From: Xanthostigma xanthostigma
Taxonomy: Eukaryota > Arthropoda > Insecta > Raphidioptera > Raphidiidae
Direction of reading: 5' to 3'
DNA length: 64,000 bases
NCBI GenBank assembly: GCA_963575645.1
Contig: OY754464.1
Coordinates: forward strand, 60,610,948 to 60,674,947
Shown here: one piece after another, positions 3,213 through 61,720 of the stretch
Layout: the number at the start of each line of letters is the position of its first letter
How positions within the stretch are numbered: the first letter of the stretch is position 1
The notes under the pieces: generated by a model
Told to the model about the DNA's origin: nothing
Databases searched by the model: none
Seen by the model: the letters and a program-made list of their open reading frames with translations, nothing else
Program-made: the position numbers and the translations under genes

Positions 3213-3214
3213 TA

Positions 3215-4767
3215 AAGGGTATAGCCGGATAGATATGGCGAGTTGGCCCCCAAATGGCAACCTATATCGAAACTTATGTTTAAATATCTACTTGATGTAC
3301 GAACTCTTTTTATATATGTGTTACCCCCGCACTCCCCTTTGACCTTGAGTTATAGAGCAAAAACCAGCCTACCTACGACTATCGTTCAAAGACACATATC
3401 TCCAAAACTAATTGAGCTAAAGAGGTAAAACCAACGCGAGCATTTAGGTAACCTTTAAGAGCACATTTTATATTTTTTTTGGATTTTTACGAATAATTAC
3501 ACACAAAATTAAAAAATAAATAAAAATATAATTTTCAATTTTTCAGTGTTCTCTGTGACTTACAATCACTGAAATAATATATATTGTGGCACTTGATATG
3601 CACTACTACACATACAAATTGCATTAGAAAAAAGTTGGTGCAACACTTCGAAAAAAAATTTTTTTGACGCGCATCACATCATATAAGGATACAAACTTGA
3701 CATAGTACACACATATATAAATATTTTATTAATTAAAATTATTGTTAGAATGGATTGAATGAAAATATAAACAATTTTCAGGAAAATATTGATTTCTTAC
3801 GGCGCGGTGCCGGGAATTATACGAGCGACAGCGAGTTCGAACTTAACGTACTTAAGAGCTAAGACTTTATTTATTTACACCACCATGGCATCATTTTCTG
3901 TCGGAAGTAGCTATTATTTATTATTTGTAGCTATTATTTTATTTTGTTATCTATAATAATTTCAGATAATATGTGTAAAAAATAAGGCTCTTCGTAAGGT
4001 TACTGGTTATAAAAAAGTTATCAAAACTGACAAAGACGCTAATTTGTTTAATTAATTTAATGAAATTATGACGTGGTGGTGTAAACACATAAACAGTCTT
4101 AACTCTTAAGCACGTAAATAACAAGCAGTGCAATAACAAGTACGAACTCGCTGTCGCTCGTATAATTCCCGGCACCGCGCCGTATGAAATCAATATTTTC
4201 CTGAAAATTGTTTATATTTTCATTCAATCCATTCTAACAATAATTTTAATTAATAAAATATTTATATATGTGTGTACTATGTCAAGTTTGTATCCTTATA
4301 TGATGTGATGCGCGTCAAAAAAATTTTTTTTCGAAGTGTTGCACCAACTTTTTTCTAATGCAATTTGTATGTGTAGTAGTGCATATCAAGTGCCACAATA
4401 TATATTATTTCAGTGATTGTAAGTCACAGAGAACACTGAAAAATTGAAAATTATATTTTTATTTATTTTTTAATTTTGTGTGTAATTATTCGTAAAAATC
4501 CAAAAAAAATATAAAATGTGCTCTTAAAGGTTACCTAAATGCTCGCGTTGGTTTTACCTCTTTAGCTCAATTAGTTTTGGAGATATGTGTCTTTGAACGA
4601 TAGTCGTAGGTAGGCTGGTTTTTGCTCTATAACTCAAGGTCAAAGGGGAGTGCGGGGGTAACACATATATAAAAAGAGTTCGTACATCAAGTAGATATTT
4701 AAACATAAGTTTCGATATAGGTTGCCATTTGGGGGCCAACTCGCCATATCTATCCGGCTATACCCTT
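3215..4767. mobile_element. Long fold-back element (1.55 kb palindrome), TA-flanked
   Basis: The element starts AAGGGTATAGCCGGATAG and ends with the reverse complement, between TA dinucleotides (3213-3214 and 4768-4769). The outer ~620 bp of each arm (3215-3830 and 4144-4767) look near-identical, and a 61-codon ORF at 3243-3428 recurs with the same translation on the other strand at 4554-4739. Inner arms stay alignable but diverge, for example a short indel after the TCGCTGTCGCTCG block, leaving a small central loop. There is no transposase, so it would need another element for mobility. TA flanks and the AAGGG end suggest a Tc1/mariner-like MITE; the ends resemble those of 36988-38732. Confidence 0.85.
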
Positions 4768-4769
4768 TA

Positions 4770-5600
4770 AAATTTTTGTTTGAAAACTACTCTATTAATC
4801 GAATAATATTGAAGGCAATACTTTACCAGTTTTGTTGCCATTTTTTTTCCAGAATTGATGACGTAAAACAACATGTGTTCCTCTTTTAAACATAATAATA
4901 GTAAATATAAGTAAGTATATTATATAATTATTATTCCTTACACAAGATTAATTAAGCATGAATCCTGTTTGATTTCAAGATACTAATAATAATAACAATA
5001 ATAATAACAAAAACAACAACAACAATAATAATAATAATAATGATAATAACAATAATAATAACATTTATATATAAATAACAAATATAAATAAAACACAGCT
5101 AAAATAATAATAAAAAGAAATAAATACTAAATAAGTTTAAAACAGGTGATGAATTTAATTGATTTGTTTCATCGTCTATCCGCGTTTTCTTTATCATGTA
5201 GATGAGGAAGTATTCTATAAGAACATACATAGGTACCTAATTAGGTATATATTTTTTTTTATTAATTCAAACCTTTTTAAAAATTACAATTTTTTTTAAT
5301 CAACAGACTGGATTTTAGTCACGTTCGGGCAGAGTACCTGGTTGTCGATATTAAGTACAATTTTATTCTCTTAAATCTTTTTTTTTTTAATTTATACAGC
5401 CACAGTCATGATATCAAACAAATTAGGTTTTTTTTAAAGGTACATCCAATTGTATATGTCCACATAATTATATATAGAGCATATGCACATATACAAGAGA
5501 ATATCACTAGGGGGGTGGCTCCACCATATAAGGTATCTGGCCAGTATCATTAAATATCAAAACTGGATCTAAACATGACAAAACATCCATGAATGGAAGT
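4770..5600. repeat. AAT/AAC microsatellite in gene-free stretch
   Basis: Positions ~4985-5110 are a long impure AAT/AAC/ATA run. The remainder is AT-rich with oligo-T tracts; I see no gene. Confidence 0.6.
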
Positions 5601-5651
5601 GGAATTCGATCCAAACAGGCACGCTGACCATTACACCACACTGTCTTCAAC
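5601..5651 (-). mobile_element. tRNA-derived SINE head fragment
   Basis: Read on the minus strand, GTGGTGTAATGGTCAGCG is a good RNA polymerase III A box, followed by GGATCGAATTCC, a near-consensus B box. The spacing is shorter than in a real tRNA and no acceptor stem closes it, so it is a SINE head or degraded tRNA pseudogene, not a tRNA gene. Confidence 0.5.
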
Positions 5652-8957: not shown

Positions 8958-9170
8958 GTCTTTGTCTTTAAAGCCTCCTAGCTCTAAAATACGATCGAAA
9001 CTTCACAACGCCGAAATTTATAAAAAATCTATTCATTTTCTGCCAACTTTATCTATTTAGCTGAGTAGCTGAGTGTGTATATATCTCTGCCTGCTGATTT
9101 AAATTTAACGAAATTTTCTGTCAAAACTTATCGATGGTTAACCCTTCTGGGTATTCTTAAAATTCATTTT

Positions 9171-9812
9171 TACCATTCCAACCCACTAGTAGGGTATACT
9201 AGTTTAGGTCAAAATTCACTTTTTAAAATTTTACAATATTTTTTGTTTTGAGCTCCCCCGAATCCAAAAAAAAACATATTTTTGGAAACATTCTGTGTGT
9301 CTGTCTGTGAGCACGAAAGAACGGATGGAAACCAAATTTTAAAAGGATGTTTGATATAGAAATATGAAGAGATTTATTGTTATTGGAGAAAATCGGCGCA
9401 TTCGCAGAAGAGATATATGTTATAACGGTGTTTTTTTTATAATATTGATGTACATTTCATAACGACTTATTATTCTATTTATTTTTTCAAGAAAGTTTCG
9501 TTAAAAAGTTTTGTTAAAAATTTTTTTTTCTAAACTTTATAGTTTCGGAAATACTTTGAAAATAAAAAAAAATCATCCACTCTTTTGTTTTATGGATCTG
9601 TCAGAAATAAATTAGTTAGGCATGCTTTGATTAATTTTTACATGACGTGGAACATATTATGTAGGTAACCACGGCAACGAATAACAAATATCATATTGAA
9701 TACTAGCAATTACCCGCGTCACCTCACGCGATATCAGAAATGTTATTTTCTGTATAATACTACATTTTTGAAGTTGGTATGGTCCCGTCGCCAAATTGGC
9801 TGGATTTTTTTA
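9171..9812 (+). mobile_element. R1 dispersed repeat, copy a
   Basis: Begins TACCATTCCAACCCAC and ends near GGTCCCGTCGCCAAATTGG. Landmarks shared by all long copies are CTGTGAGCACGA, GGATTGAAACCAAATTTT, GTTTCGGAAATA, TTTACATGACGTGGAACATA and ACCCGCGTCACCTCACGCGAT. The last, read on the minus strand, is a GC-rich hairpin followed by CTAG and T, as at Helitron 3' ends. No coding capacity. Confidence 0.75.
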
Positions 9813-10134
9813 CCAACTAGGGCTCATCTATTGAGAAATACTGGTAGATAGACCTGATAGTATGTACTATGTTTTACCCTGTATAGGCTCGGTGTGTATA
9901 CCTTGTCTGGTGGGTAACGTGATGGGGTATTCCTCCAGCTCACGCGCCACTGCGTGTCACGTTTTATCAACACTTACGCACATATGCGCATGTATGTGTG
10001 TGTTCGTATTTCGTGTGCTGTAAGGCTCCAAAGTACACACTAATGCCGGTGTTATTCTGCAGTCTATACATTATTGTTGTTTCTATTGGATGAACGGCCC
10101 GTGACGTCACTGTAATTGGCTAATTTTTGTTTTT
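9813..10134. other. No gene seen
   Basis: Mixed-composition sequence with TG/CA-rich patches around 9965-10010. No gene or repeat boundary can be supported. Confidence 0.4.
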
Positions 10135-11146
10135 TTTTATAACCAGCAACCACCAGGATTTTTGACGTGATAACGTCTTATAAATTGATGAATCACCAAT
10201 CTTATAAATTGATAAAACACCGACTGCATGCACGAAAAAGTGTAACGTAACGTTCCTAACGTTCGTAACGCGTAACGCGTAGCGTTCCGCCTGACCCTGT
10301 GCGTGCTTTTTGCTAATTTCTCGCTCAATTTAAATCAGATCGGTTTGAAACCAGTCTTAAACGAAAGAGGAGAACATTTTACATAGATTTCGTATAACAG
10401 AATTTGCCTAAACAGTTTTTTTATACAAATTTATATAGAAAAATAGCTGTATAAATGCAATGTTGTCTAATGCATGACGCGACGCGGTCGGTCGTCTTTG
10501 TTTGCCGTACATGGAAATTAGAAAATAACGTATGTCTTGTCTTAACATGAAAACGGCTGCATTTCTAATGTTAAATTCAATTTTTTGACATTAGTATTTT
10601 GTGAAATGCAACGCCTTCTAAGTTAAGTATTGGAATGACTTATTATTATTAGAACATAATACTTTGACAGTTGCAAACGTCACTTTTGACATTTCTTATC
10701 ATTCCGACACCAAGGATAAGCGGATTGAAACCAAATTTTGGGAGGATGTTTGATATGCAAATATGAAGTGGCCTATTGTTTTTGGGGAACATCGGCGCAT
10801 GCGTAAAAGAATATATCTCTTATAATGATGTTTTATATAATAATAATATAGTTTTTAAAACGGTTTTTACTCTATCTATTTTTACTAGACATTTTTGTAA
10901 ATTTTTTGGGGAAAATCGGCGCATGCGCAAAAGAGATACATGCCATAGTTGTTTTTTATATAATAATAGTGTACTTTTTATAGTGTTTTATTATTCTACT
11001 TAATAAAATTTACCTAAATTTGAAGCGAAAGATGCAATATCATAGATTCGAATTATTATAATTATTATATAAATTTAGGTTATGTATTACGGAATACGTT
11101 ATCACGTAAAACTATCGTCCGTAAACCGACTTTACAGACAACCAAT
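10135..11146 (+). mobile_element. Element Y, copy 1
   Basis: The same ~1 kb sequence is present in reverse orientation at 27040-28642. Subterminal inverted words TGACGTGATAACGT (left) and ACGTTATCACGT (right) suggest a TIR-type DNA transposon, and the end ACAGACAACC is shared with the other copy. A repetitive core of AACGTT/ACGCGTAACG words lies at 10238-10280. Copy 1 carries ~300 bp (about 10749-11075) absent from copy 2; part of it is R1-like. No transposase is visible. Confidence 0.75.
10722..10988 (+). repeat. R1 fragment inside element Y
   Basis: GCGGATTGAAACCAAATTTTG and AAATCGGCGCATGCGCAAAAGAGATA match the middle of R1, present here in two partial tandem pieces. The junction with Y is seamless, so Y may have captured R1 or R1 inserted and was truncated. 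Confidence 0.6.
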
Positions 11147-14636: not shown

Positions 14637-15132
14637 TACAGAATGATTTTTATTTAAGTTGATTCTTCTCTTTTAACAGCGTGTAGAAATCAAATAGACG
14701 AACAAATATTTTATGTAACTTTTTTATCAAAGCTCAAAAATAAGAGAGAAAGAGCCTTTCAAGGTTTAATTAATTTTTTAAAATTTTATTTAATTAATTC
14801 ATAAGCCCGGTTAGCACACGCGAAGAAATGATAGCACGAATCGGGAAATGCATCTCAAATAATTCGCGGATAATCACGATTACAAGCATGGCTACGACGC
14901 ACGTATCTTCGTGTCCAACAAAACGGGGACAACTTTGAACAATTTCTGTGAATAACATATTTCCATAGTGACATAACATAACTCTAGCACCGACCTCAAA
15001 ATTTAATGAAACTTTAGAAGCCCGTTTCTCTTTAATTTTTGAGTTTGATAAAAAAGTTACTTGAAATATTTGTCCGTCTATTTGATTTCTCCACGCTGTT
15101 AAAAAAAAGAATCAACTTAAAAATCACCTGTA
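14637..15132. mobile_element. Fold-back MITE, CAGGTGA family, copy 1
   Basis: The two ends are inverted copies: AAGTTGATTC, CAAATAGACGAACAAATATT and CTCAAAAATAAGAGAG at left are mirrored at right. The right TIR reads, inward, TACAGGTGATTTTTAAG. TA dinucleotides lie at both ends. The family is shared with 19134-19603. No transposase. The left end is more diverged (TACAGAATGATTT). The minus-strand ORF 15128-15359 abuts its right end. Confidence 0.8.
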
Positions 15133-16997: not shown

Positions 16998-16999
16998 TA

Positions 17000-17905
17000 G
17001 TCCAGGAGGCAGTGAAGATTTTCGGTACTTATTTTCCCAGTCAGCAAACACCGATAGAATTATTCGGTTTGTTATTCTAAGCAAAATTCCTATATATGTA
17101 GGGGGCGGGTTCCGATGGGTTAAGGCGGAAAATGAGTTAGAAAGTACAAATATACTGCACTTTTTTCCAGTCATAAAAATAGCTCTATTAGTGAGAGATA
17201 TAGTGAATCGTCTGGCTTAATCTGTGAGTATGGGTTATATGTCTGGCAGGTAAAAAATTGGAAAAAAATAATCAACACCATTGCCCTTATTTTCGCAGTC
17301 CTAAAAATTTGTCAGATGACAGTTTATATTATAATTACAGCTGAAAATACAGTCTGGCTAATGTGGAACACCCCGAAAGCCTTGCCAGACTCGTCCAACG
17401 CTCGTTTGGCGCGCTAAATTCGCCATGTTCAATTATACAGGTGATTGTTGTCATCTCTATCTGACTTGTGAGTCTGGCGGAGCTTTCGTGATGGTAAATG
17501 ACAGCTAGATGTGTATTTTCTATGAAATTATCATGTGACTCAAGATGCCGCCAGACTCATTTGCCAATTTCGTAAATTAGCCAGACTTACTTTTGATTAT
17601 AGTTTATGATAGTATCAAATGATACGTTAAATTTCAAGCATGGGAAAATTAGGAAGAATAAGCCGGACTGACTTTCTTCCATTTGGGATCTGCCAGACTG
17701 TTATTTGCATTAATAAAATGATTAACTTTAATTACTGTCAAATATTTATGACTGGGAAAATAAGTGGTCTTTTTTTTATCTAGTGAGCCCACCCGAAAAT
17801 TTTAGCCAGACTCACAAATTGTCGTTTTGTGTCACCATCCAAACAAACTATTCCATATTTGCCGACTGAGAAAATAAGTACAAAAAAATTCACTGCCTCC
17901 TGGAC
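17000..17905. mobile_element. TA-flanked MITE, GTCCAGGAGGCAGTGA family, full copy
   Basis: GTCCAGGAGGCAGTGA at left and its reverse complement at right are bordered by TA (16998-16999, 17906-17907). Subterminal words CTTATTTTCCCAGTC and GACTGAGAAAATAAG continue the inverted repeat. The interior carries seven exact copies of GCCAGACT or its complement (17351, 17384, 17471, 17550, 17580, 17692, 17805) plus shorter or one-off variants. A shortened copy lies at 39945-40181. No transposase. Confidence 0.8.
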
Positions 17906-17907
17906 TA

Positions 17908-19133: not shown

Positions 19134-19603
19134 TACAGGTGAGTTTTAAGTTGATGCTTTTTTTTTACAGCGTGTAAAAATCAAATAGACGAGCAAATAT
19201 TTCAAATAGTTTTTTTATCAAAACTCAAAAATAAGAGAGAAACAGCCTTTCGAAGTTTAAATAAATTTTATTAAATTTTCTTTAATTTTGAGATCGATCC
19301 TGGGGTTATATTATGTCACTATGGAAATAAGTTGTTATTATCAAGTATGTTGGTGCTTATTTGAAACTGACATGTGTATTGTTCTGTTTTTGAGAGATAA
19401 TAACAACTTATTTACATAGTGACATAATATAACCCCAGGACCGACCTCAAAATTAAAGAAAATTTAATAAAATTTATTTAAACTTCGAAAGGCTGTTTCT
19501 CTCTTATTTTTGAGTTTTGATAAAAAAACTATTTGAAATATTTGCTCGTCTATTTGATTTTTACACGCTGTAAAAAAAAGCATCAACTTTAAACTCACCT
19601 GTA
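19134..19603. mobile_element. Fold-back MITE, CAGGTGA family, copy 2
   Basis: A near-perfect palindrome: TACAGGTGAGTTTTAAG at the left end, the reverse complement at the right, and arms of about 200 bp matching throughout (TCAAATAGACGAGCAAATAT, CTCAAAAATAAGAGAG, GGGGTTATATTATGTCACTA). Each TIR begins CAG followed by GTGAGT, identical to the metazoan 5' splice consensus. The loop is about 60 bp. Arms are more similar than those of 14637-15132, so this copy is younger. Confidence 0.85.
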
Positions 19604-25633: not shown

Positions 25634-25635
25634 TA

Positions 25636-26405
25636 GGGTGACCGGTAATTGCTTGTATTCCTCTCGGGAGAAGAAACTATGACTAAATTGGAATGATTAA
25701 ACCTTTATCACCTGGGGGTGGAAATGCGTAATTTATTTATAATGACACTTCTGTGAAAAATTTTTATTTTATTTTTTTTGATACCCATATTGTAGGAAAG
25801 CATAATTATTCATTGTAATATAAAGTTTAACGCAACACATAAAATCTAATACTATAAATTTCGTAGTTTTTAACTTTAGGAAGATTAGACAGCTATAATA
25901 AGTTATCAGATCATGGAAAAATTTAGGCCAAAAATATTTTTCTTCATACTTCGATCGAAAGTACGTACTTTCGTCCCTTATAGCAGGGACGAAAGTTTGA
26001 CATTTACTCCCTGTTATTTATTATATTAAATGACAGCGGTAACCCCAGTTACGAGTATAAATACGCATGAGAAATTTTTTCCTCCCGCCGTTCTCACTGG
26101 GAGTAAATGTCAATCTTTCGTCCTTGCTGACGAAAGTACGTACTTTCGAGCGGATATGAAAAAAAATCGTATACACCACACGGGCCTTAAAAGTTGAAAT
26201 ATCGCCTCTGCGCGTCATGAGCCCGAGGCGAAATTCAACTTTCGGCCCTTGTGATGTAATATACTATTTTTTTAAATACCCAAAATACGGATTTTTGTAA
26301 AAAGAAAACCGAAGTAGTTTTTCTCGAAAATTACACATTTTTGACCCCCAAGTGATAGAGGTTAAATCCTTCCAAATTAGGAATACGAGCAATTCCCGGT
26401 CACCC
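25636..26405. mobile_element. TA-flanked TIR element, GGGTGACCGG family
   Basis: Left end GGGTGACCGGTAATTGC and right end GCAATTCCCGGTCACCC are flanked by TA (25634-25635, 26406-26407). Subterminal repeats continue (CACCTGGGGGTG / GACCCCCAAGTG). A central pair with GACGAAAGT and GTACGTACTTTCG words (25950-26150) forms inner hairpins. About 770 bp, non-coding. Confidence 0.8.
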
Positions 26406-27039
26406 TACCTAATCGGTGATAATATTGTGACTGATACAACTGTTAAAAATCGTTATCCTCGTTTGAACATATTGTCACATTATTAAAATATTATCATTAT
26501 CGAGAGCTCACTAGAAAGATAATTTTAAACGTGCAACTTTTTTAACAGCCGTTTCTATTTTTTGCACCACTTCTTTTCGAAAAAACGTCGTCAACTTTTT
26601 TTTAATAGCACCTCGCTCATTTTTTTTTTTTGCAAATTATACGAACTGTCTTGAAGACGTCTTCAGTAGCCTAAGGATCCAAAAAGAAAGCAATTACTGG
26701 TGTGAAATTTGCATTTATTTGCTAACGTTTCGAAGGATATAATATTTTCATCCTCAGAGCACTGTTAAAAAAGAAAAAAAAATTAAAATAATGAATTTTA
26801 ATTAATGGTTGTAAATATGTTGAAACATTTTTGAATAGGTCATTTTAATTAAAAATGTAACCAAGAGTTAGTTTTTTTAAATTTTAATAAATTATAAGGA
26901 GGACTCACCAAATACCGTCAATTGAGTAATATATTATTCATTATAATAATAATAATATCATTGTTTTTTTTTGTATTATTGTGACAAAATTACTCAATTG
27001 ACTGCATTTGTTGAGTCCTCTTTATAATTTGTTAACATT

Positions 27040-28642
27040 AAAAAAAATGGTTGTCTGTAAAGTCGGTTTACGGACGATAGTTTTACGTGATAACGTATTC
27101 CGTAATACATAACCTAAACCTCCCAAAATTTGGTTTCAATCCGCTTATCCTTGGTGTCGGAATGATAAGAAATGTCAAAAGTGACGTTTGCAACTTACAA
27201 AGTATTATGTTCTAATAATAATTAGTTATTCCAATAGTTAACTTAGAAGGCTTTGCATTTCACAATATACTAATGTCAAAAAATTGAATTAAACATTAGA
27301 AATGCAGCTGTTTTCATGTTAAGACAAGACATACGTTTGCTTCTAATTTCCATGTACGGCAAACAAAGACAACCGACCGCGTCGCGTCATGCATTACACA
27401 ACATTGCATTTATACAGCTATTTTTCTATATAAATTTGTATAAAATATTTTTCTATATAAATTTGTAGTACAGTCAATCTGGCAAAAACCTCAACAAAAC
27501 CAACCAAAAAGGTGAAACTTGGTGAGTCGCTAGAGAATGATGAAAAAAAGGTTACCTGGCAATGGCCACCTTGTACCTGTTCAAATACCTGTTCAAATAG
27601 TCAAAAAAAACTCAAAAATATTTTGAAATGCATTTTTCTCGAAAACTATCCATTTTACAGAAAAATTTATTGAACAAAAAATGTAGAGGGCATCGTTATC
27701 TACAATTAATGTCATTGGTGCTATGTTGTACAACAAAAAATGTGCGCAGTAGGTGGCGCTTAAGTGCCAAAAAAAGTGTTTTTCCACTTTTTTGCCCTGA
27801 AATTTTCATTTTTCAGTTACGATTCAAATAGAAAAATTGTTCCATTTTATTTTATAAACAACTTTTATTTCAACATTTTTTTCATACAACTTACCGTTTC
27901 AGAGCTGCAGCTTGTTGAAGTGAAAATAAGTTGTATGAAAAGTAAGTTGTATGAAAAAAATGTTGAAATAAAAGTTGTTTATAAAATAAAAAGGAACAAT
28001 TTTTGCATTTGAATCGTAACTGAAAAATGAAAATTTCAGGGCAAAAAAGTGGAAAAACACTTTTTTTGGCATTTTAGCGCCACCTACTGCGCACATTTTT
28101 TGTTGTACAACATAGCACCAATGACATTAATTGTATATAACGATGCCCTCTACATTTTTTGTTCAATAAATTTTTCTGTAAAATGGATAGTTTTCGAGAA
28201 AAATGCATTTCAAAATATTTTTGAGTTTTTTTTGATTATTTGAACAGGTACCAGGTGGCCATTGCCAGGTAACCTTTTTTTCATCATTCTCTAACGACTC
28301 ACCAAGTTTCACCTTTTTGGGTGTTTTTGATACGAAATGATTTTTTTTTCGCCAGATTGATTGTACTATTGTATAAAAAAACTGTTTAGGCAAATTCTGT
28401 TATACGAAATCTATGTAAAATGTTCTCCTCTTTCGTTTAAGACTGGTTTCAAACCGATCTGATTTAAATTGAGCGAGAAATTAGCAAAAAGCACGCACAG
28501 GGTCAGGCGGAACGTTACGCGTTAGGAACGTTAGGAACGTTACGTTACACTTTTTCGAACATGCAGCCGGTGTTTTATCAATTTATAATATTGGTGATTC
28601 ATCAATTTATAAGACGTTATCACGTCAAAAAAATTATTGGTT
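27040..28642 (-). mobile_element. Element Y, copy 2, interrupted
   Basis: Reverse-complement match to 10135-11146 over both ends (GGTTGTCTGTAAAGTCGG, and TTATAAGACGTTATCACG). Compared with copy 1 it lacks the ~300 bp R1-containing block, joining AAATTTTGGGAGG directly to TTTAGGTTATG near 27110-27135. It is split by the fold-back at 27471-28363, so copy 1 gives a near-empty site for that insertion. Confidence 0.75.
27471..28363. mobile_element. Fold-back element inside Y
   Basis: A palindrome with ends CAGTCAATCTGGC / GCCAGATTGATTG next to TA on both sides. Arms of about 400 bp match (GGTGAAACTTGGTGAGTCG, GGTTACCTGGCAATGGCCA, AAATGCATTTTTCTCGAAAA, GTGGAAAAACACTTTTT). The loop is short (around 27895-27935). 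The ORFs at 27593-27787 (minus) and 28049-28243 (plus) are the same mirrored sequence, hence not independent genes. A few extra bases at the junctions mean the exact target duplication is uncertain. Confidence 0.8.
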
Positions 28643-34140: not shown

Positions 34141-34818
34141 CAACTATATATTATTATTGTACAATATAATATTATAGTAGGGCTATACGACTATATCATG
34201 AAAGCAGCTAAACAGTAAACAATTCTTGAGCGTCGTAGAGTAATGATTTACGCTCATAGTACGGAGAAGATTGCCCGTTGGCTCCCGACCGCCTTCACTG
34301 AATTATTTTTACATTTATTTCATATTATTTCACTTGATATTTATTTATTCAAATATTTTGCTTATTTTTTTTCTTTAATTTTTTTAAATTTTTTTTTTAT
34401 TTTTAAATTTGTATTATACAGTGAAAAACTTAGCTAGAGATGCACTTTTAGTTTTGGAAATTATTTAGTCTTATTTTTTCAAGGTTATCTTTTCGGTTGA
34501 GCTTATTTGGGCGTAGTTATAACTCAAATTTTCAATTTATATATTTTTTTAATATGTTAAAAATCCAGTTTAATCATTTACCAGTTTTAGAATCTGTGAA
34601 GGAGGGGGTCTTGTAATAGAGGAGTTCACTGAAACGCCATATAAACAACGGCATCGGTATACGCTCGACTATTCACAAAAATGTTGAAATGGCCACATGC
34701 AGTTATGCACTTTACAAGTCTAAAAAAAGTTCCTACAAAGAATATAGGTAATCTATTTCTAGTTCGTAAGATTAAAACATACTTCTAGTTTAGTCAATGA
34801 GTGCTCATAAGGGGCATC
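34141..34818. other. No gene seen
   Basis: T-rich at 34285-34415. 34590-34680 resembles 545-625. No gene supported. Confidence 0.45.
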
Positions 34819-34820
34819 TA

Positions 34821-35981
34821 GATGGAAAAGTCGAAAGCAGAACATTTGACTTAGGAACTTTGTTTGGACTAGTTAGGAGATAAACATACTAAAAGTCCTT
34901 GCCCCTCTGAGGTACGCCCGAAGGGGGGGAGCACAAAGAAGGTCCCGTTTTTTGGTTTTTTGCTTTCATCTCGAAAACGGTACGTCGTACGAAATTTTGT
35001 TGTAATACATAATGAAAGCTGATAAAATTCTCTACAACTTTAGCTTTCACACTTTTTATCTATCTCCAATCTTTGCCTAGCTATGAGCTCCAAAAAACGG
35101 TCGATTTTCAAAAATGTGTTAAATTCTCTGTAGCACATTGTAACAATACGAATTTGTCAAAATCATTTCGTATCGCTCATACAAACTATTAAAAACACCC
35201 ACACACTATTAAAAAATAACATAAGCTTTAACCTATTGAAGGCCCTGGGCACATTAGGATTATGGGGCCCCTATGACCTTAACAGAGCACTATTTTGTTA
35301 GAATAGACAAAGAAAATAGATAAACAAGGTTCTAGATTCTAAGTCGAGGAATGTGATATAAAATGCATATATTTAAAAGGATCACGTTCCCAAATTTAAC
35401 ATGAAGGACACAAAAAAAATAAGTATATGAAAAATAGTTCACTGATGATTTTTGTTTAAAACAGTTTAGGTACTTAGTATACCATTAAACTAGGGGGTCC
35501 CTATCGATCGCGGGGCCCTGGGCACGTGCCAGAGTACCCAGTGGGAAAGAGGGCCCTGTGTGGAGGTACTCCCAGCTTATGTTATTTTTTAATAGTGTGT
35601 GGGTGTTTTTAATAGTGTGGATGACCGATATGAAATGATTTTGACAAATTCGTATTGGTACAATGTGCTACAGAGAATTTAACACATTTTTGAAAATCGA
35701 CCATTTTTCGGAACTCATAGCTAGGCAAAGATTGGAGATAGATAAAAAGTGTGAAAACTAAAGTTGTAGAGAATTTTATCAGCTTTCATTATGTATTCCA
35801 ACAAAATTTCGTACGACGTACCGTTTTCGAGATGAAAGCAAAATACCAAAAAACGGGACCTTCTTTGTGCTCCCCCCCCTTCGGGCGTACCTCGGAGGGG
35901 TAAGGACTTTTAGTATGTTTATCTCCTAACTAGTCCAAACAAAGTTCCTAAGTCAAATGTTCTGCTTTCGACTTTTCCATC
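34821..35981. mobile_element. Long fold-back element, GATGGAAAAGTCG family, TA-flanked
   Basis: Left end GATGGAAAAGTCGAAAGC and right end GCTTTCGACTTTTCCATC between TA (34819-34820, 35982-35983). Arms of ~400 bp agree nearly throughout (GGTACGTCGTACGAAATTTT, CTTTGCCTAGCTATGAG, AATTCGTATTG/AATACGAATT). The ~370 bp loop (about 35225-35585) includes the word GGGCCCTGGGCACGTGCC. Non-coding. Confidence 0.85.
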
Positions 35982-35983
35982 TA

Positions 35984-36985
35984 GAACTATTCGTTGCTTA
36001 AGCTATTCTCAATTTATCTTGTAAATTTCGTGATCAGATTGATTTGTTTTTTTTTCTTTGATAACATTTTACTCACAAAATAAAATGAAATCATGTTTAA
36101 GATTTATATAAAAAAAACTTCTTCTTTGGTGTATATAAAGTAGGCCAACTTCATGATGGAGAAATATTTTCACGGGCAACTAGTCACGGCTTTTCCACTT
36201 ACATTTACTTAATAAATATCTCCACTCATCTTCACTGAAAGCTTTTCACTAACAAAGTAAGACATTAGGTTGCTTTCGGTAATTTATTATATCTGATGAT
36301 CGCTTATCGTCGACCTAACGATATTATTAAAGTGATCTGATTTATACTCGAGACGAAAGCATTTGTTTATAAATTACCCTTAATGATCGTTCTTATCGCA
36401 TAATGGCATATTGACTTTGTTAAAACGAATACTTAAAGATCAAATATTGAGTTGTTATAAAAAAAAACAAATAAAACTAAAAGTACTTAACCATTTTTCT
36501 AAAATGAAACTTTTTAGCTCGCAATAAAGCAGCATTTTCTGTAACGGAAATTGGTAAATGACGTTACATCATGAACAATTTAAATATAATTGCAATTTTT
36601 ACAGCATCCTTAAGGCTTTACATTAAGAACAGTTAGATCAGTTCGTTAGGTGGCGCTTATTGACTGTTTGAAAATGGTAAACCCAGGTTAAAATCCAGAT
36701 TAGTAGTTTTTTTACCATTCCAACTCCACAAGTGGGTACTGTTACACATTTAGGTCAAAATTCACTTTTCCAAAACATTTTGTTTTGATAACGATTTTAT
36801 TTAACAGTTTGTAATGTGCATAATATAGAAATTTTATTTTTTTTTGCAAATTATTTTTAAATTACAAAAAAAAATTAAATTAGCACATTATGTGTTTATG
36901 GATAATAAAAGTGTATTAATTAAAAAGTTTCACTTCTACATAGTTCAATTACGACACCCGTGGTGTTTTTTTGTACACTAAATTG
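35984..36985. other. No gene seen; R1 end fragment
   Basis: 36713-36800 matches the left end of R1 (TACCATTCCAACTCCACAAG, TTTAGGTCAAAATTCACTTT) and is cut off. The rest is AT-rich and featureless. Confidence 0.5.
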
Positions 36986-37719
36986 AGAAAGGGTCTAGCC
37001 GACTTGCCATATGGAAATTGCACTGACGTCTTATGAACATAGTTTCACCTTTGAAATATTACTTTTTTGCTTAAAGTACTGATACTGTGATTTTAGATCT
37101 CTGCTTTCACTCATAAGGGAGATATGAGGGTAACAACCCCTAACGACATCTTTTTTTTTCTCAGAAACTATGACAGATATTTGAATGAATCCAACGCGAA
37201 AATATAGGTATCAATTAGTTCTATATTTGGTATTTTTTTTATATTTTTAGTTTAATTTTCAGAAGTGCAAAACGCAAAATTTATTTTTTGAGGGTGGTTT
37301 TTTATGTGAACTACTGGAGATACACCAACCAAATAAATATCATGTAATCATCTAAGAGTCTACTGTAATATATCATAAATACAAAACTTTGCGTTTGGTG
37401 GAACATAGTTAAAAAAAAAAACGATAGCGCATGAACTACATATTATAGATAATATACCAGTGCACTGTATAGCATTTTGCTATTTTACAAGTACCTAGTA
37501 AGTTACATCGAAATCTGTTTCCTTGCTTGCGTCATGGTCACGCTCTACGCAAAAGTAGCTACTGTCTTTTATTATTTATTAATTATTATTATTATTTATT
37601 ATTATTATTTAAAAATAGCTATTGTGCGTTAGTTTTTATTTAATTCGTTTAAGAACTGTTATTTAATGAAGGATGGAGTCCAATGAAGATAGGGGAAATG
37701 CAAAGGAAGTGTGTTAATT

Positions 37720-37955
37720 GTAACTTAAGTATAAAAAAAAGTAAACAAAGTTACTACAGAGGAAGAAATACGTAAATATTAGACATACTGTAAAAATACC
37801 GTATGTTTGTATATTACTATTAATTTATTAAGCTGCGTTTATTACAGAATATCGAACCAGTCTTTACTGTATTTTTACAGTATGCCTGATATTTACGTAT
37901 TTCTTCGTCTGTATAGTAACTTTATTTGATTTTTTTTTTTAATTAAGTTACAATT
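37720..37955. mobile_element. Nested inverted-repeat MITE in fold-back loop
   Basis: TTAATTGTAACTTAAGTA and TTAAGTTACAATTAA mark the ends; inner words GAAGAAATACGTAAATATTA and TACTGTAAAAATAC are mirrored. About 230 bp with a short centre. Confidence 0.7.
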
Positions 37956-37958
37956 AAC

Positions 37959-38221
37959 CAAGGGCGTAGATGTGGGGGGGTACAGGGGGTAATTACCCCC
38001 CCCAGGATCCCAGCCACAACAAACGAAAAAATACTTTTTTGTTGCGGAAATGAAAGGACCTTTTTTTTGCTCTTCTATTGTGCCGACACACGATAAAATT
38101 TTAGTTAGGTTGCTAAAAAAGGTTTTCGATTTTATTTTCGAGGTTAGGAATCTTTAAAAAATATTGATTTTGTCGCTTTAGCCCTCCCCCCAACCTCAGA
38201 AAAAAAAATATCTACGCCCTT
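37959..38221. mobile_element. Nested MITE, AGGGCGTAGAT ends
   Basis: AGGGCGTAGATGTGG at left and ATATCTACGCCCT at right are inverted. The interior block GTTGCGGAAATGAAAGGACC also occurs, inverted, in the hAT fragment at 42738-43007. The G and C homopolymers near 37974-38003 and 38183-38193 are part of it. Confidence 0.65.
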
Positions 38222-38734
38222 ACTAGGTACTTGTAAAATAGCAAAATGCTATACAGTGCACTGGTATATCTATAATATGTAGTTCATGCGCTATCGTTTT
38301 TTTTTTTTTTAACTATGTTCCACCAAACGCAAAGTTTTGTATTTATGATATATTACAGTAGACTCTTAGATGATTACATGATATTTATTTGGTTGGTGTA
38401 TCTCCAGTAGTTCACATAAAAAACCACCCTCAAAAAATAAATTTTGCGGTTTGCACTTCTGAAAATTAGACTAAAAATATAAAAAAAATACCAAATATAG
38501 AACTAATTGATACCTATATTTTCGCGTTGGATTCATTCAAATATCTGTTATAGTTTCTGAGAAAAAAAAAGATGTCGTTAGGGGTTGTTACCCTCATATC
38601 TCCCTTATGAGTGAAAGCAGAGATCTAAAATCACAGTATCAGTACTTTAGGCAAAAAAGTAATATTTCAAAGGTGAAACTATGTTCATAGACGTCAGTGC
38701 AATTTCCATATGGCAAGTCGGCTAGACCCTTTCT

Positions 38735-39107: not shown

Positions 39108-39868
39108 AAAGTTACAACGAATTTTATTTTGTAAGAGACTGTACACAATACATCTGAGCTTTAATATACAGATACACTTATACAGGGTGTATCACTAACA
39201 GAAAACGGTACATGGGGAAAACTCCATTGTGCAAATTAGTTGATCAACGATTACTTTGGCCACATATGAGAATGGGTAACATGGTAACGCTGACTAACCA
39301 TTATTTAATAACAATTATAGCTAATTATAATGAATAATTAGAAAAATCAGTTAAAATAATTCTTTAATATTAAATGAATTGATTTTTGTTAAGGAAACAT
39401 TTTTTATTCAGAAAATATTTTTTTACATACAAACAGTTAAAATAAAAAAATAAAGCAATTAATCCGTTATAAAAACTTTCTCTAACTTTATCTAACATTA
39501 CTAAACTGTCAAATGAACAGCAATATGCATTTGATACTGTATAGGTACACCGTGGTAATCATGGTAACGACCTCTGAATAGAGGGCAAAGCAATCTCTGA
39601 TCTTAACTAATTAATTGTACTGTGTACTTTTCCCTATGTACAGTTTCCTGTGATACACCCTGTATACAATTACAGTTGCAAGTACAATAGAAATAATTTT
39701 ATTTTTTAACAAAATTGTAAAAGAAGTCAGAGTTTTTTTCAAAAATTTTATAATTTTTGAGTTTACAATGCATTAGTTTTTAGAACATAATATTCTAAGA
39801 ACTGTTTTTGAGATATTCTGGAATGTACTCGTTTTCTTTATAGTTGGTATATCTCAAGCATGTTAATT
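39108..39868 (-). repeat. Repeat W, copy B, split by MITE
   Basis: Reverse-complement match to W copy A. It lacks the 1.58 kb fold-back present in A and instead contains the MITE at 39183-39662, so each copy shows the other's pre-insertion state. Confidence 0.7.
39183..39662. mobile_element. TA-flanked MITE, CAGGGTGTATCAC family
   Basis: Ends CAGGGTGTATCAC and GTGATACACCCTG with TA outside (39181-39182, 39663-39664). Outer ~45 bp TIRs are partly matched (ACGGTACATGGGGAAAA / TTTTCCCTATGTACAGT) and TAGTTGATCAACGATTA is loosely mirrored by GATCTTAACTAATTA. About 480 bp; no ORF. Confidence 0.85.
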
Positions 39869-43306: not shown

Positions 43307-43308
43307 TA

Positions 43309-43922
43309 CGGAAGCCGGGTTGGCTCATTGGTGACTAGTGGAGTAGTGGCACCGCACACGGCCACTTCCAACATGTTAACGCGTGCACGCGTTAACATGT
43401 GTCCGTGTGCGGGATAAATGCAGATTTCTGCCTTATCCGTGTGCGGGATAAATGCAGATTTCTACCTTATCCTGGAACGGTAATCGAGCTATCTCTGTCT
43501 TTTAACTGTCAAATTCTGTGAGCAGCGTTACTTTTTGCATTGAGGTTAGGCGTAGCTGAAGTTTTGTTTATAGTGAAATAAAGTAATAAAGAATTTCAAA
43601 GTAAACATTAGAAATGAGTTTATTGTTCATCACAGGTAATTTTACATTTTCATTTTTAATTTTAACGAAACTAATTTCTAATGTTTACTTTGAAATTCTT
43701 TATTACTTTATTTCACTATAAACAAAACTTCAGCTACGCCTAACCTCAATGCAAAAAGTAACGCTGCTCACAGAATTTGACAGTTAAAAGACAGAGATAG
43801 CTCGATTACCGTTCCAGGATAAGGTAGAAATCTGCATTTATCCCGCACACGGACACATGTTGGAAGTAGCCGTGTGCGGTGCCACTACTCCACTAGTCAC
43901 CAATGAGCCAACCCGGCTTCCG
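43309..43922. mobile_element. Fold-back element, CGGAAGCCGGGT family, TA-flanked
   Basis: Ends CGGAAGCCGGGTTGGCTCAT and the complement, between TA (43307-43308, 43923-43924). Arms of ~290 bp match (GTAATCGAGCTATCTCTGTC, CAAAGTAAACATTAGAAAT). The left arm has two additions relative to the right: a 22-bp perfect palindrome GTTAACGCGTGCACGCGTTAAC (43376-43397) and a ~34 bp tandem duplication of GTGTGCGGGATAAATGCAG. Non-coding. Confidence 0.85.
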
Positions 43923-43930
43923 TATTTAAT

Positions 43931-49180: not shown

Positions 49181-49535
49181 TTTTTCTATTATTACGGTAC
49201 AATTAAAGAACGGTTGATTTATTCCATGAAAGTTTTGTAAAAGAATTTTTTTAACTTTATTGTTTCGGAAATATTTTAAAAATAAATACAATCAGCCGTT
49301 CTGTTTTTGAAACAAATTATTAAGGTAGCTGACAAACATGCTTTAGTTAATTTTTACATATGAAACCATATTATGAAACCCTGCAATCGAAAAGCAAACA
49401 TCATACTATTTATCACTAATTGTCGTTACCCGCGTCGGCGCACGCGTAACAAATTTTATTTTATTTATTATGCCAAATGTTTATGTTTTAGAGTTGGAAT
49501 GGTCCTGTCTTCCGATTCGCTGCAATTTTTAATAT
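49181..49535 (+). mobile_element. R1 copy e2, diverged tandem 3' half
   Basis: A second, more diverged copy of the R1 right half follows directly (TTGTTTCGGAAATATTTTAA, ACCCGCGTCGGCGCACGCG, AGAGTTGGAATGGTCCTGTC). Confidence 0.65.
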
Positions 49536-51592: not shown

Positions 51593-52323
51593 AACAAGCG
51601 GCCCTAAAGTTCACAAGACCAACTTCCCAGTTTGATGAATATTGAATATTAGTAAGTATGTACCTAATAATAACACAGAAAAGTAGGCATTGTAATTACT
51701 AAAAAAAATTAATTAAATGTTGCCAACACAATAAATTAGATCTGATAAATCTTTTTCAACATTTGTTTAAAAAAAAACGGATCGATTTTGATAAAATTTA
51801 TTTCTGAATAAATTAATACCTACTCTTCGTTTGGGATCCTACCGAAGTCTAAAGCGTGAGATTTCTTGTAAAATCCATTTTTTGCAGTAAATTTTACAGA
51901 ACAGAAAGACTGGACCGACTTTAATGAAAAACATGTTTTAATCATTTTGACATTATTACGCTTCGAGGTCGATATCGTTTATTATTTTCCGAATTTCATG
52001 TACAATCTATTTTGTGCAGGCTTTTTTTTTGGTTTACCTAAATAAAAGAAATGACTAACAAACCGATTTTGATAAAATTACGTGCTAGAAATAAATGAAT
52101 CACGTTCGTACATACAAAAGAATAGTGTAGTGATCTTCAAACAAAAATTTGTTACAAATTTTGATTTCTGTTTTTGGACGCATTGTAAGAACTTCCCAGT
52201 ATACTGGAAAGTTACTATTGCAAGTATGTGAAAAGTGAATTTTGACCTAAATTAGTAAGACTGTTCTTCCACTTGAAAAATCCATACCGGTGCAAGGTTT
52301 CCATCGTACCCGCTATGTACCTA
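51593..52323. other. No gene seen
   Basis: AT-rich; 51770-52110 has repeated GAT(C)GATTTTGATAAAAT-like words typical of LINE or Helitron tails. No gene. Confidence 0.4.
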
Positions 52324-54230
52324 CACGGTGTCCCATTTAAAATTTTATTCTAAATTTTCTCAAAAGGGATGAGGTATAGAAAAAGATTTCTCAGTTGAAG
52401 GATATTTAGTATCAAGAGGATCGAAAAGTTTCCTAAGTGAATTTTCGATAGAAGGCGCCACCTTCGAAATACTTCGTTTTTTTGTAATAAAAACCCATAT
52501 TTTTTATTGGCTCATTAGAGAAAGAGGAGACAAAATGTTACCTATATAACGTCCAGATTATTACCATTCCAACCCACAAGTGGGGAATGGTACTAGTTTA
52601 GATCAAAAATCACTTTTCAAAAATTTTACAATATCTTTCCGTTTTGAGGTCCCCCGAATCCAAAAAACATATTTTAGGAAAATCTCTATGCGTCTGTTTG
52701 TCTGTGAACACGATACAGGTCAAACGAATGAGCGGATTGAAACCAAATTTTGGGAGGATATTTGGTTTGCAAATATGAAGAGCCCTATTGTTTTGGGGGA
52801 AAATCTACGCATGCGCAGAAGAGATATATGCTAAAACGGTATTTTTTATATAATAATGGTATACTTTTCAAAACGGCTTATTATTCTATTTATTTTTTCA
52901 AGAAAGTTTCGTTAAAACATTTTTTTCTAAATTATAAGTATGCTTTGATTAATTTTTACATGACGTGGAACATATTATGTAGGTAACCACGGCAACGAAT
53001 AACAAATATCATATTGAATACTAGCAATTACCCGCGTCACCTCACGCGATATAAGAAATGTTATTTTCTGTATAATACTACATTTTTGAAGTTTTGTTAA
53101 AAAAATTTTTTTCTAAACTTTATAGTTTCGGAAATACTTCGAAAATAAAAAAAAAATCATCCGCTCTTTTGTTTTATGGATCTGTCAGAAATAAATTACT
53201 TAGGCATGCTTTGATTAATTTTTACATGATGTGGAACATACTATGTAGGTAACCATGGCAACGAATAGTTAATATCATACTGAATACTAGCCATTACCCG
53301 CGTCACCTCACGCGATATCAGAAATTTTATTTTCTTTATTATAACCAAATGTCAACATTTTTGAAGTTGGAATGGCCCGTCACCCAATTGGCTGGATTTT
53401 TTTTACTCTAGCTGGTGATGTGGGGAGGAAAATTTTTCATTGTTTTTCCGGAAAATTTTTTATAGGATATTTTTGAACTTTCCATATTTTCTTTTATTAG
53501 TTAATTTCTGTCCTTTTAATAAAAACTACAGGTTGTAATTATTCTAACACACGAATAAAATTAAGTTTAATCTGATTTACTTACTTAAGATTTGTCATAG
53601 TGTTTAATTTGCAACTCAAAACAAGTCAATTATCCTATTTCACAATAAAAAAAGCACTCGCAGAAAATGAATCACCCATTTCTTTTGTTATTTGATAAAC
53701 AAAGTAATGAGGTAGTGGCAGTAGCCAGAAAATGGTACCATGTAAACATATAAACAACTCTAGATTTTTGTCTTTTTGTTGGAACGGAAAAACTCAAAAA
53801 GGCATCACATCCCGAGTTGATAAAAATACTCCAGTTTTGTTTGCTTGTAGTAGCTTAGTAAATTTTCAGGAAAATTTTCTGTTTCTAAATTTTCCGGAAA
53901 ATCCACAACTCTAACTCCTGTCCATTTTTTTTCAGTGGTGATCATTTTAACTCGTGTTTGGTCCTAGAGAAATTGTTCGAACTGATCGTAAACAATGTAA
54001 AGCAATATAAAAAAGACCATTACTGAAAAAATGAACGCATAAAAATATGGGTCATCATTTAAAAAAATGTAGTTGTCATTCGTATCTTGAGGATGGCGCC
54101 ATCAATCGAAAATTCATTTAGGTATCTTTTCGACCCTCTTGGTATTAAATAAATTTTATCTGAGAAATTTTTTGCTATTCCTCATCTCTTGTGAAAAAAT
54201 CTAGAATAAAGTTTAAAATGGGACACCGTG
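52324..54230. mobile_element. TIR element, CACGGTGTCCCA family, TA-flanked, carrying an R1 insertion
   Basis: Left end CACGGTGTCCCATTTAAA and right end TTTAAAATGGGACACCGTG with TA outside (52322-52323, 54231-54232). Arms of ~190 bp correspond (GAGGATCGAAAAG / CTTTTCGACCCTC, GAATTTTCGAT / ATCGAAAATTC, AAACCCATATTTTT / AAAATATGGGT). The inside holds the R1 copy at 52562-53402 and ~530 bp of non-coding sequence. Confidence 0.8.
52562..53402 (+). mobile_element. R1 dispersed repeat, copy g (internally duplicated)
   Basis: Complete ends (TACCATTCCAACCCAC to CCAATTGGCTGGATTTT). The block from the TTTACATGACGTGG word to CATTTTTGAAGTT occurs twice (52945-53092 and 53218-53369); the first copy is joined in mid-word to TTGTTAAAAAAATTTTTTTC. 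The first duplicate is closer to copy a (9171) than to its own partner, suggesting recombination between copies. Confidence 0.75.
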
Positions 54231-54232
54231 TA

Positions 54233-59138: not shown

Positions 59139-59795
59139 CCGTGTCAAAAGAAATTTTACTTCAAAAACCTGAATATATATTTTTATAACAATAAAAAGTC
59201 ATATATATATATATAATATATCGAATTGATAATTGATTTTTTAAATAGATTAAAAAAATACAGTTATGTAACACTGATTGCACTAATTGATCAATTTTTA
59301 GTTATTTATTTGCTTTTAATCACAGTTAGCCAGTTGAGAGTTCATTAAATAATGTAGAAAAGTCTAACATATATAACGACAGTCAATTGTTTAACAAAAG
59401 CGTATTCTCTATCGTAACATAATTTACGAAATCTGTCTACTTGCGACATATCAATGAATCTATTTTACTAGACTTAAGCGATTTAGGACGACTCCCTCGA
59501 GTATTTGAACATTGAAATATATATAATGCATACATACTTTATTTTTTATCGAATATTAGTGCACGCAAATAGCTATATACTCTAATATTAAAATTATATA
59601 TCTATGCCTTCAGTTATTTTATACTCGTATATTAATTTAGTAAAACCTGAAATTTATTATTTATTGAGATATGTTTTATTAGTGTAGTTGCCTATATTAT
59701 GCACGAGAAACTATCCAGGAAACTATAATCCCATCAAAAACATAAATGTGAAGAAATGGGTCGAGTTCTTGTCAAAACTGTGTTTTGTTATCTTA
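59139..59795. other. No gene seen
   Basis: AT-rich with a TA-rich run at ~59200-59222. Nothing recognised. Confidence 0.45.
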
Positions 59796-60234
59796 AAAAA
59801 ATTCCAGTCAATTGGGCGACGAGACCATTCCAACTTAAAAAATATTGACATTTGATGTTATTATGTAGTATAATACAGAAAACAAAATTTCTGATATCGC
59901 GTGCGGTGACGCGGGTAATGGCTATAAAGTTAAGAAAAAAAATGTTTAACAAAAGTTTTTTGAAAAAATAAATATAATAATAAACCGTTATGGCAAGTAT
60001 ACCATTATTACACATAAAATAACGTTATAGCATACATAGATTTGCATATCAAACATCTTACCAAAGTTTGGTTTCAATCCACTCATCTGTTTGACCTGTA
60101 TCGTGTATACAGACTTTTTCCAAAAATATATTTTTTGATTTTTGAGGACCTCAAACGAAAAAATATTGTAAAACTTGGAAAAGTGATTTTCGACCTAAAC
60201 TAGTTCCATTCCCCACTTGTAGGTTGGAATGATA
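59796..60234 (-). mobile_element. R1 dispersed repeat, copy h (internally deleted)
   Basis: Reverse copy with both ends (CCAGTCAATTGGGCGACGAG to AGGTTGGAATG). The Helitron-like CGCGTGCGGTGACGCGGG word at ~59900 is joined directly to the TTAAGAAAAAAAATGTTT region, so the middle ~170 bp is missing relative to copy d. Confidence 0.75.
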
Positions 60235-60329
60235 AAAATTGTGTGAACTGATAATAATTTACTGAAAACTGCTCCATTGTTAGACCTTTAAAAATTTGGT
60301 TCTCACTCATTTTCAGATATGTGAAAATA

Positions 60330-61533
60330 TTCAAAGCAATGGCACGTCAATCCGGTGTCGGAGAGGCAACCGGATGACGAGTGGTAATCTGGGCATATGA
60401 GTGGTGCAGAACCCCCTGGTAGCGGCCAAAGTGACCCCAAATGGACGGGGGCGGCGATATGGGGGTGTGTCAAAATCGAAAAATGTTTGAAAAGGCAACC
60501 GGATAAAAATGCGGTTGCATTGAAGGAAATACCCTAATTATATAATAAATTTTTTTTGCCATCCGAAACACGCGGGCCGTTTTTGCACTAGCGAATAAAA
60601 AAAAAATTTAAAAAAAACTGAAAAGGCAACCGCTTCAAAATTAGTGAGCATACTTATTGACACCACCAAACGTTGGAAAAACATTGCCATCCGATCCTGA
60701 TGGGCAGTTTCGGAGAAACAACCCCTCAAAGTCGCCGAAAAACCCTTTTTTTCGATTTTTTCAACAATAAGTAAAAAAAACACACTAAAAATTGTTCAAA
60801 TCGGATGGCATTCGAAATTTATACTGTCCTAAGTACAAATAATAGTGTGTATCAATGCCATCCGATTTCGATTAAATTTACCCCTATTTAGCCACCCCCA
60901 AAACTCATGAAAATAACAATTTTATGCAGCGTATGGCATTATTTTTCTTGTTTTTGAGTTTTGGGGGTTGGCTAAATAGGGGTAAATTTAATCGAAATCG
61001 GATGGCATTGATACACACTATTATTTGTACTTAGGACAGTATAAATTTCGAATGCCATCCGATTTGAACAATTTTTAGTGTGTTTTCTTTACTTATTGTT
61101 GAAAAAATCGAAAAAAAGGGTTTTTCGGCGACTTTGAGGGGTTGTTTCTCCGAAACTGCCCATCAGGATCGGATGGCAATTTTTTTCCAACGTTTGGTGG
61201 TATCAATAAGTATGCTCACTAATTTTGAAGCGGTTGCCTTTTCAGTTTTTTTTTAATTTTTTTTTTATTCGCTAGTGCAAAAACGGCCCGCGTGTTTCGG
61301 ATGGCAAAAAAAATTTATTATATAATTAGGGTATTTCCTTCAATGCAACCGCATTTTTATCCGGTTGCCTTTTCAAACATTTTTCGAATTTGACCCACCC
61401 CCATATCGCCGCCCCCGTCCATTTGGGGTCACTTTGGCCGCTACCAGGGGGTTCTGCACCACTCATAGGCCCAGATTACCACTCGCCATCCGGTTGCCTC
61501 TCCGACACCGGATTGACGTGCCATTGCTTTGAA
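60330..61533. mobile_element. Long fold-back element (1.2 kb), near-perfect palindrome
   Basis: TTCAAAGCAATGGCACGTCA at left and the complement at right, with TA outside (60328-60329, 61534-61535). Arms of ~590 bp match almost perfectly (GGCAACCGGATAAAAATGCG, ACACGCGGGCCGTTTTTGCA, GATCCTGATGGGCAGTTTCG, CCCCTATTTAGCCACCCCCA). The loop is only ~35 bp at 60915-60950. The words GGCAACCGG and GCCATCCGA recur within each arm. The 81- and 60-codon ORFs inside are not independent of the repeat. This is the longest and tightest hairpin in the window. Confidence 0.9.
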
Positions 61534-61720
61534 TAAAAGGTATAGCCAGAAAAGGGGCCAGAAAGTCGAATGCTTTTGTCGCCTTGGAAACCAATGGCTA
61601 AAACGTAATGTACTTTTCGACAACTCTAATGAATTGTAAATTGAAATTACGTCTGTTCATAAAGCAAAGAATGTCTGAAATTGTGCTTTTTGTTCCCTAT
61701 CTATTGTTTAAAAAAATTCA

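Follow-up and report, generated by a model that had tools for sequence, protein, structure and literature searches.

Long fold-back elements, each between TA dinucleotides, are scattered over a 64,000-nucleotide stretch of the Xanthostigma xanthostigma genome (contig OY754464.1, positions 60610948-60674947; hereafter the window), raising the question whether they are one kind of transposon or several. A preliminary description took them all for Tc1/mariner derivatives with TA target-site duplications that a single process had made palindromic. We compared the elements of the window, designated by E numbers, with copies fetched from the same 623-Mb genome, designated by L numbers. The elements are very probably a mixture of non-autonomous DNA transposons with at least four target-site classes that were moved in trans, some of them lengthened by end copying templated by their terminal inverted repeats (TIRs). 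The classes are Spy (E1, E8), a class fitting AcademX (E6, E7, E12 and probably E3), IS3EU-like (E10) and Tc1/mariner-type (E4/E2).

The window holds at least 13 inverted-repeat elements and 14 inverted pairs with arms of at least 100 nt at 70% identity or more, while the longest arm across 20 dinucleotide shuffles (63988-64000 nt each) measured 54 nt. Long arms are present in E1 (632 nt, 100% identity), E6 (605 nt, 98%), E12 (576 nt, 98%) and E8 (~514 nt, 99%; missing from the preliminary description), and shorter ones in E5 (309 nt, 98%), E7 (305 nt, 96%), E10 (186 nt, 99%) and E4 (184 nt, 98%). All ten termini quoted previously do occur inverted in the window with TA directly outside both ends. 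Long, near-perfect arms, which had been claimed as well, were found for six of these ten (E1, E4, E6, E7, E10, E12); the other four (E3, E9, E11, E17) are weakly palindromic. Genome-wide searches for exact ends covered nine families and returned 236 matches for E1, 938 for E12, 74 for E6, 368 for E10, 1207 for E7, 356 for E4, 96 for E8, 215 for E3 and 393 for E17, compared with 6 reversed-pattern matches for E1 and 0 for each other family. This agrees with the earlier view of many distinct families at high copy number, as none of the nine was found only once. Among the matches listed, the ends of E1, E7, E8, E10 and E12 are mostly paired at constant distance, those of E6 are paired but with variable spacing, while single ends predominate in E3, E4 and E17. 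The fetched copies were picked for paired ends, and the per-copy counts below therefore describe intact-looking copies.

To the left and right flanks of these copies we applied the same comparison in all families, with mispaired flanks as control. TA had no part in the search patterns of families other than E1 and E8; the E8 pattern included AAA/TTT, and the first A of AAA lay outside the E1 pattern. TA stands outside both placed ends in 0/34 copies of E1, 0/11 of E8, 0/15 of E12, 0/13 of E6, 0/10 of E10, 0/5 of E7 and 0/11 of E3, as opposed to 8/8 of E4. A TA duplication common to all elements is thereby contradicted. Instead there are at least four target-site classes (no duplication at AAA^TTT, 3-4 bp, 6 bp and TA), and among the families with a resolved class a TA duplication fits E4/E2 alone. 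The long fold-backs are real, repeated, non-coding mobile elements of at least four kinds, alike merely by their common TA.

The Spy-type elements and the site at which their insertion can be followed are listed here by window coordinates, with strand where one is assigned:

3214..4768, E1: palindrome AAA-GGGTATAGCC..GGCTATACCC-TTT with arms of 632 nt at 100% identity, a Spy-type non-autonomous element with TA by chance
36988..38732, E8: palindrome AAA-GGGTCTAGCC..GGCTAGACCC-TTT of ~514 nt, Spy-type; a coding relative's left end is the source of the inner part of both arms
10375..10457, minus strand: copy of a dispersed repeat that represents the empty site, with AAATTT unbroken where L142 and L014 (both of Spy type) are inserted elsewhere and a single TCT where an E7-family copy is

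E1 is a Spy-type element whose insertion splits an AAATTT site into AAA and TTT and duplicates none of it. The first A of AAA adjoins the searched end in 34/34 copies; the TA previously reported for E1 is a T followed by this A, a chance combination that flanks the element at both ends in 7/33 fetched copies. Flank matches of 2 bp were found in 5/34 copies (mispaired 63/1122) and of 3 bp in 1/34 (35/1122), with none longer. The mode of insertion can be read from empty sites. The E1 copy L013 lies within an E12-family copy as CGATTAAA, the element GGG..CCC and TTTACCCC, and the E12 arm of the window, empty at 60862, reads CGATTAAATTTACCCC; AAATTT there corresponds to AAA, element, TTT in L013. 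Furthermore, L014 (an E1 copy) and L142 (a coding Spy relative) occupy the identical AAATTT of the dispersed repeat, where the flank of L014 differs from the copy at 10375-10457 by 2 nt upstream. The same repeat contains an E7-family copy with TCT duplicated that is present once in the empty form. Thus for E1 and E7 empty sites, paralogous rather than orthologous ones, show a duplication size other than that of TA. As an aside, this AT-rich dispersed repeat (window 10375-10457 and 27407-28422; L014, L092/L093, L142) has been the target of several different transposons.

E8 is likewise assigned to the Spy type on sequence grounds, by flanks that show no duplication (2 bp in 0/11, mispaired 11/110; 3 bp in 1/11, mispaired 1/110; none longer) around an AAA/TTT that was pre-set by the search pattern. 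Its ends are common to two coding relatives, L140 (3269 bp, TIR ~435 bp, intact open reading frame (ORF) of 680 aa, DDE_Tnp_4 at 5.9e-18) and L141 (3254 bp, TIR ~435 bp, ORF of 673 aa). Two further coding elements are L010 (3810 bp, TIR 516-538 bp by alignment, intact 714-aa ORF, DDE_Tnp_4 at 1.5e-19) and, as a third kind, L142 (4243 bp, TIR ~674 bp at 99%, intact 705-aa ORF, DDE_Tnp_4 at 1.1e-16). By these Pfam matches L010, L140 and L142 qualify as DDE transposases (Harbinger/IS5-related); they were matched to published Spy elements by description. A PDB search with the L010 protein returned nothing useful. E1 has just 38 nt at 82% in common with L010, which was left out of the E1 set as a different family. 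The L010 ORF occurs in the genome in seven copies, L010 itself among them, all full-length, free of stops and 99-100% identical, and this near-identity suggests recent activity.

The second class comprises elements that start with TA and are duplicated outside it:

31104..32690, E6: TAGCCCGGTC..GACCGGGCTA, 3-bp duplication CTT; the left arm at 347-640 (element coordinates) is an inverted right-end copy
34786..36005, E7: ends TAGTTTAGTCAATGAG..TTGCTTAAGCTA, 3-bp duplication TTC; the previously quoted GATGGAAAAG is internal
60328..61535, E12: palindrome TATTCAAAGCAATGG..CCATTGCTTTGAATA with arms of 576 nt at 98%, 3-bp duplication AAA outside TA; empty AAATTT site at 60862
16998..17907, E3: TAGTCCAGGAGG..CCTCCTGGACTA, arms not perfect, flanked by a probable 3-bp duplication (ATA)

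For E12, E6 and E7 this organization is observed directly. Duplications of 3 bp outside TA were found in 15/15 copies of E12 (mispaired 26/210), in 11/13 of E6 (4/156; 4 bp in the other two) and in 5/5 of E7 (2/20). E3 probably belongs to the same class, with a weaker result of 7/11 (12/110). The E7 boundary had been placed wrongly, as the element extends past the quoted end. From the length of the duplication together with a motif recognized by eye, the class would fit AcademX. AcademX encodes an XPG nuclease; ORF fragments are present in L073 and L074 of the E6 family, and the L074 motif GEDIDLLVL..GCDTTSA was judged by eye. Two copies considered as autonomous parents were rejected: L055 of E12 carries a reverse transcriptase and hence a long interspersed nuclear element (LINE) insertion, and L091 is an E7 copy in which a further palindrome, of a different family, seems to lie (L091 125-2468, arms 730 bp at 99.7%). 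The E3 family is represented once more at window 39943-40181, by an incomplete sequence whose one GTCCAGGAGG end is at 39945.

The remaining two classes are represented by three elements:

43307..43924, E10: TACGGAAGCCGG..CCGGCTTCCGTA, 6-bp duplication TTTAAT, IS3EU-like
19134..19603, E4: CAGGTGAG..CTCACCTG with TA on both sides, fitting a TA duplication, Tc1/mariner-type
14637..15132, E2: diverged copy of the E4 family, TA on either side

E10 is IS3EU-like by its TA..TA termini, present in 10/10 elements, and by duplications of mostly 6 bp (7/10, with 7 bp in one; mispaired 0/90). Arms of 186 nt and 85 nt were seen. In L061 (1-1420) two E10 copies stand in tandem with their TA ends 8 bp apart. 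E4/E2 would fit the Tc1/mariner type by their TA flanks: TA is found on both sides in 8/8 copies of E4, and TATA in 6. No empty site was found for E4, and the TA could therefore lie inside the element.

How did the arms become so long? For E8, the coding relatives L140 and L141 provide 16 sites that separate their left from their right TIR, and we scored these in 9 copies (18 arms). At 13 of the 16 sites, i.e. site 8 and all twelve between 376 and 434, 18/18 arms are left-type. Beyond the TIR all arms match the left subterminal sequence at 51 or 52 of 61 positions, compared with 28/60 for the right. Because both arms are left-type around and beyond the ~435-bp TIR edge, the right arm of E8 is, at least in its inner part, the left end copied in inverted orientation. 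In E6 it is part of the right end that was doubled. A palindrome of ~311 bp (268 in L072) is present in seven of the 13 copies, among them the two of 4.3-4.6 kb that hold coding fragments. Over the stretch compared, six of the seven agree in their native left sequence; L073 has the first part of it in common and then diverges. The other six copies have longer palindromes, ~605 bp in five and 562 bp in L069, and in place of the native left sequence they carry right-end sequence in inverted orientation. An inverted copy of right-end sequence extended the E6 arms from ~311 bp to ~605 bp. In both E8 and E6, then, part of one end was copied onto the other, lengthening the palindrome. The earlier proposal of a process making both ends alike is to this extent upheld by the doubled end sequence, and fails in naming Tc1/mariner ends as the general source.

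The two arms of a copy also resemble each other more than those of different copies in two families. In E1 the difference is 1.44% within and 2.49% between copies (28 copies, 0/20000 permutations), and when the set was split into an earlier and a later half of 14 copies, either half gave 0/20000; six of the 34 copies were left out, being outside 1400-1620 bp. In E12 the values are 1.20% and 1.93% (13 of 15 copies, L013 and L055 left out; 0/20000). E1 variants common to at least two copies are present in both arms of most carriers at 13/21 sites within 131-500, 2/4 within 1-130 and 0/14 within 501-632. Variants 180, 276, 294 and 410 occur in both arms of all five of the window copy (WIN), L020, L023, L024 and L026, and in one arm only of other carriers, e.g. 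L035. The latter is a chimera with one window-type arm and one that is ancestral at most sites examined. In E7 and in the E12 subfamily of L045, L046 and L054, mid-arm variants confined to one arm are still present.

Taken together, the mixture of transposon classes with partial end copying would work as follows. Transposases supplied in trans would move the non-coding elements. TIR-templated recombination or repair would copy one end onto the other past the edge of the TIR and so produce longer arms; variants of this step may join the left end of one copy with the right end of another or involve fold-back template switching. Later arm-to-arm conversion would keep the arms alike in some lineages (E1, E12), and other long palindromes may have arisen when parents with pre-existing long TIRs lost internal sequence. 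Such a deletion may be enough for E1, E12, E7 and E10. A bolder version, in which the doubling of ends recurs throughout this genome as a general route across superfamilies (Spy, AcademX-like and perhaps IS3EU-like), with palindromes out-amplifying their parents and conversion keeping them perfect, is possible but doubtful.

Several observations weigh against the mixed reading. On the side of the target classes, 2-bp flank matches in E1 slightly exceed the control (P ~0.04), an excess that we do not take as a duplication because the E1 empty sites show AAATTT intact. AAA/TTT of E8 is present by construction, being part of the search pattern, and E8 has no empty site, with no search aimed at one. 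Two of the 10 E10 copies, namely L060 and the one that comes first in L061, have no flank match, and neither Pfam on the ORFs of L073 and L074 nor a PDB search with the L074 protein lent AcademX protein-domain support. As regards end doubling, E8 sites 27 and 48 are right-type and site 435 is neither; the outer 375 nt hold just three informative sites (8, 27 and 48), which disagree, and since positions 49-375 are uninformative we claim doubling for part of the end and not for the whole. No coding parent is among the fetched copies of E1, E12, E7 or E10. Finally, no concerted signal was obtained in E7 (9 copies without L091, 782/10000), E10 (9 copies without L075, 1308/10000) or E6 (5 of 13 copies, the eight longer ones left out, 539/10000), so that arm-to-arm conversion, seen in E1 and E12, looks episodic and not universal.

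Derivation of all elements from Tc1/mariner transposons by one palindrome-forming process accounts for the TA beside every quoted end in the window and for E4, which fits in 8/8 copies. In the flank comparison, however, E1, E12, E6, E7, E10 and probably E3 and E8 behave otherwise: empty sites refute a TA duplication for E1 and E7, matched flanks do so for E12, E6 and E10, and the coding relatives of E8 carry DDE_Tnp_4. We regard this origin as extremely improbable. The same applies to the idea that the palindromes or their perfection are artefacts of assembly or polishing. Private E1 variants found in both arms are indeed in excess mid-arm, away from unique sequence (22/69 versus 6/79 near the ends), which could partly reflect polishing. 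An artefact would nevertheless have to produce the same sizes at many loci, matched flank duplications in most families, the four E1 variants in both arms of five copies, and the mid-arm differences between the two arms that E7 and some E12 copies retain.

A more substantial objection is that no end was doubled and that the palindromes are plain internal deletions of autonomous parents with very long TIRs. Coding elements with long TIRs do exist, as the coding Spy relatives in this genome have TIRs of ~435 bp (L140, L141), 516-538 bp (L010) and ~674 bp (L142), and the published accounts, as far as available to us, give 467 bp for a Spy TIR (PMC11304231) and ~460 bp for a long-TIR (LTIR) mariner (PMC5490172). 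Yet the arms of E8 and E6 outreach the TIR of their coding or longer relatives, with the subterminal sequence of one end present twice, and we consider deletion without doubling improbable as a full account. Still less probable is that transcribed copies serve as long-hairpin sources of endogenous small interfering RNAs (endo-siRNAs) and are selected for perfect pairing. The predicted folds are very stable (e.g. -493 kcal/mol for E10, z -53 against 20 shuffles), but such stability follows from the palindrome itself.

The window contains further elements next to the mixture of classes described above:

25634..26407, E17: GGGTGACCGG..CCGGTCACCC with TA on both sides, short TIR
27469..28365, E5: TA followed by CAGTCAATCTGGC, arms of ~309 nt, within the dispersed repeat also found at 10375-10457
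39181..39664, E9: TA followed by CAGGGTGTATC, weak palindrome, seen as window copy only
52322..54232, E11: TA followed by CACGGTGTCC, weak palindrome, seen as window copy only

A target class for E17 was dropped (8 single ends, TA beside 4), and a candidate empty site for E5 was rejected as blurred by a local duplication. A 209-aa ORF at 22688-23317 resembles by eye the end of an insect mariner transposase (..LTPLDFFLW), and a 156-aa ORF at 28880-29350 on the minus strand the tail of a non-LTR retrotransposon protein; neither has a Pfam match. Overlapping, diverged dispersed repeats in inverted arrangement at 45803-49202, 52322-54232 and 9166-11002 seem to have nothing to do with the palindromes.

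The elements seem to be additional, new members of groups already known. Spy elements of the PHIS superfamily are described, in the passages available to us, as inserting at AAA^TTT without duplication, encoding a DDE transposase and having long TIRs in some members (PMC11304231, PMC4482050). E1 and E8 share the insertion mode and the long TIRs, and unlike coding Spy elements they are non-coding palindromes; the inverted left end in the inner right arm of E8 does not appear in those Spy passages. E10 shares with IS3EU/GingerRoot the TA..TA termini and 6-bp duplications given in the relevant part of PMC10045372, and is known here from non-coding copies. The same source, in part, reports 3- or 4-bp duplications for AcademX, as in E6, E7, E12 and perhaps E3; a candidate nuclease motif was picked out by eye in E6 fragments. 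Autonomous aphid mariners can have long TIRs (PMC5490172, in the part at hand), and miniature inverted-repeat transposable elements of the Tc1/mariner type use a TA target as E4 does, from which most resolved families of the swarm differ. For Galileo/Foldback-type elements the sections consulted describe long TIRs that grew by taking in sequence from outside the TIR, chimeric copies, a proposed role of conversion, and convergence of long TIRs (PMC3573991). The superfamilies here are other ones, and sites separating the ends of coding or longer relatives reveal which end was doubled. As far as these excerpts go, published work on Spy and Galileo foreshadows much of the palindrome story (PMC11304231, PMC4482050, PMC3573991).

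The interest of the swarm lies in end doubling in Spy and in an AcademX-like family. A common TA can mask unrelated transposons, and E8 and E6 provide two worked cases, with diagnostic sites, of an end doubled into a longer palindrome. If transcribed, the palindromes would be obvious sources of double-stranded RNA. With Spy relatives carrying intact, near-identical ORFs in the same genome, the origin and mobilisation of long-TIR elements become directly testable.

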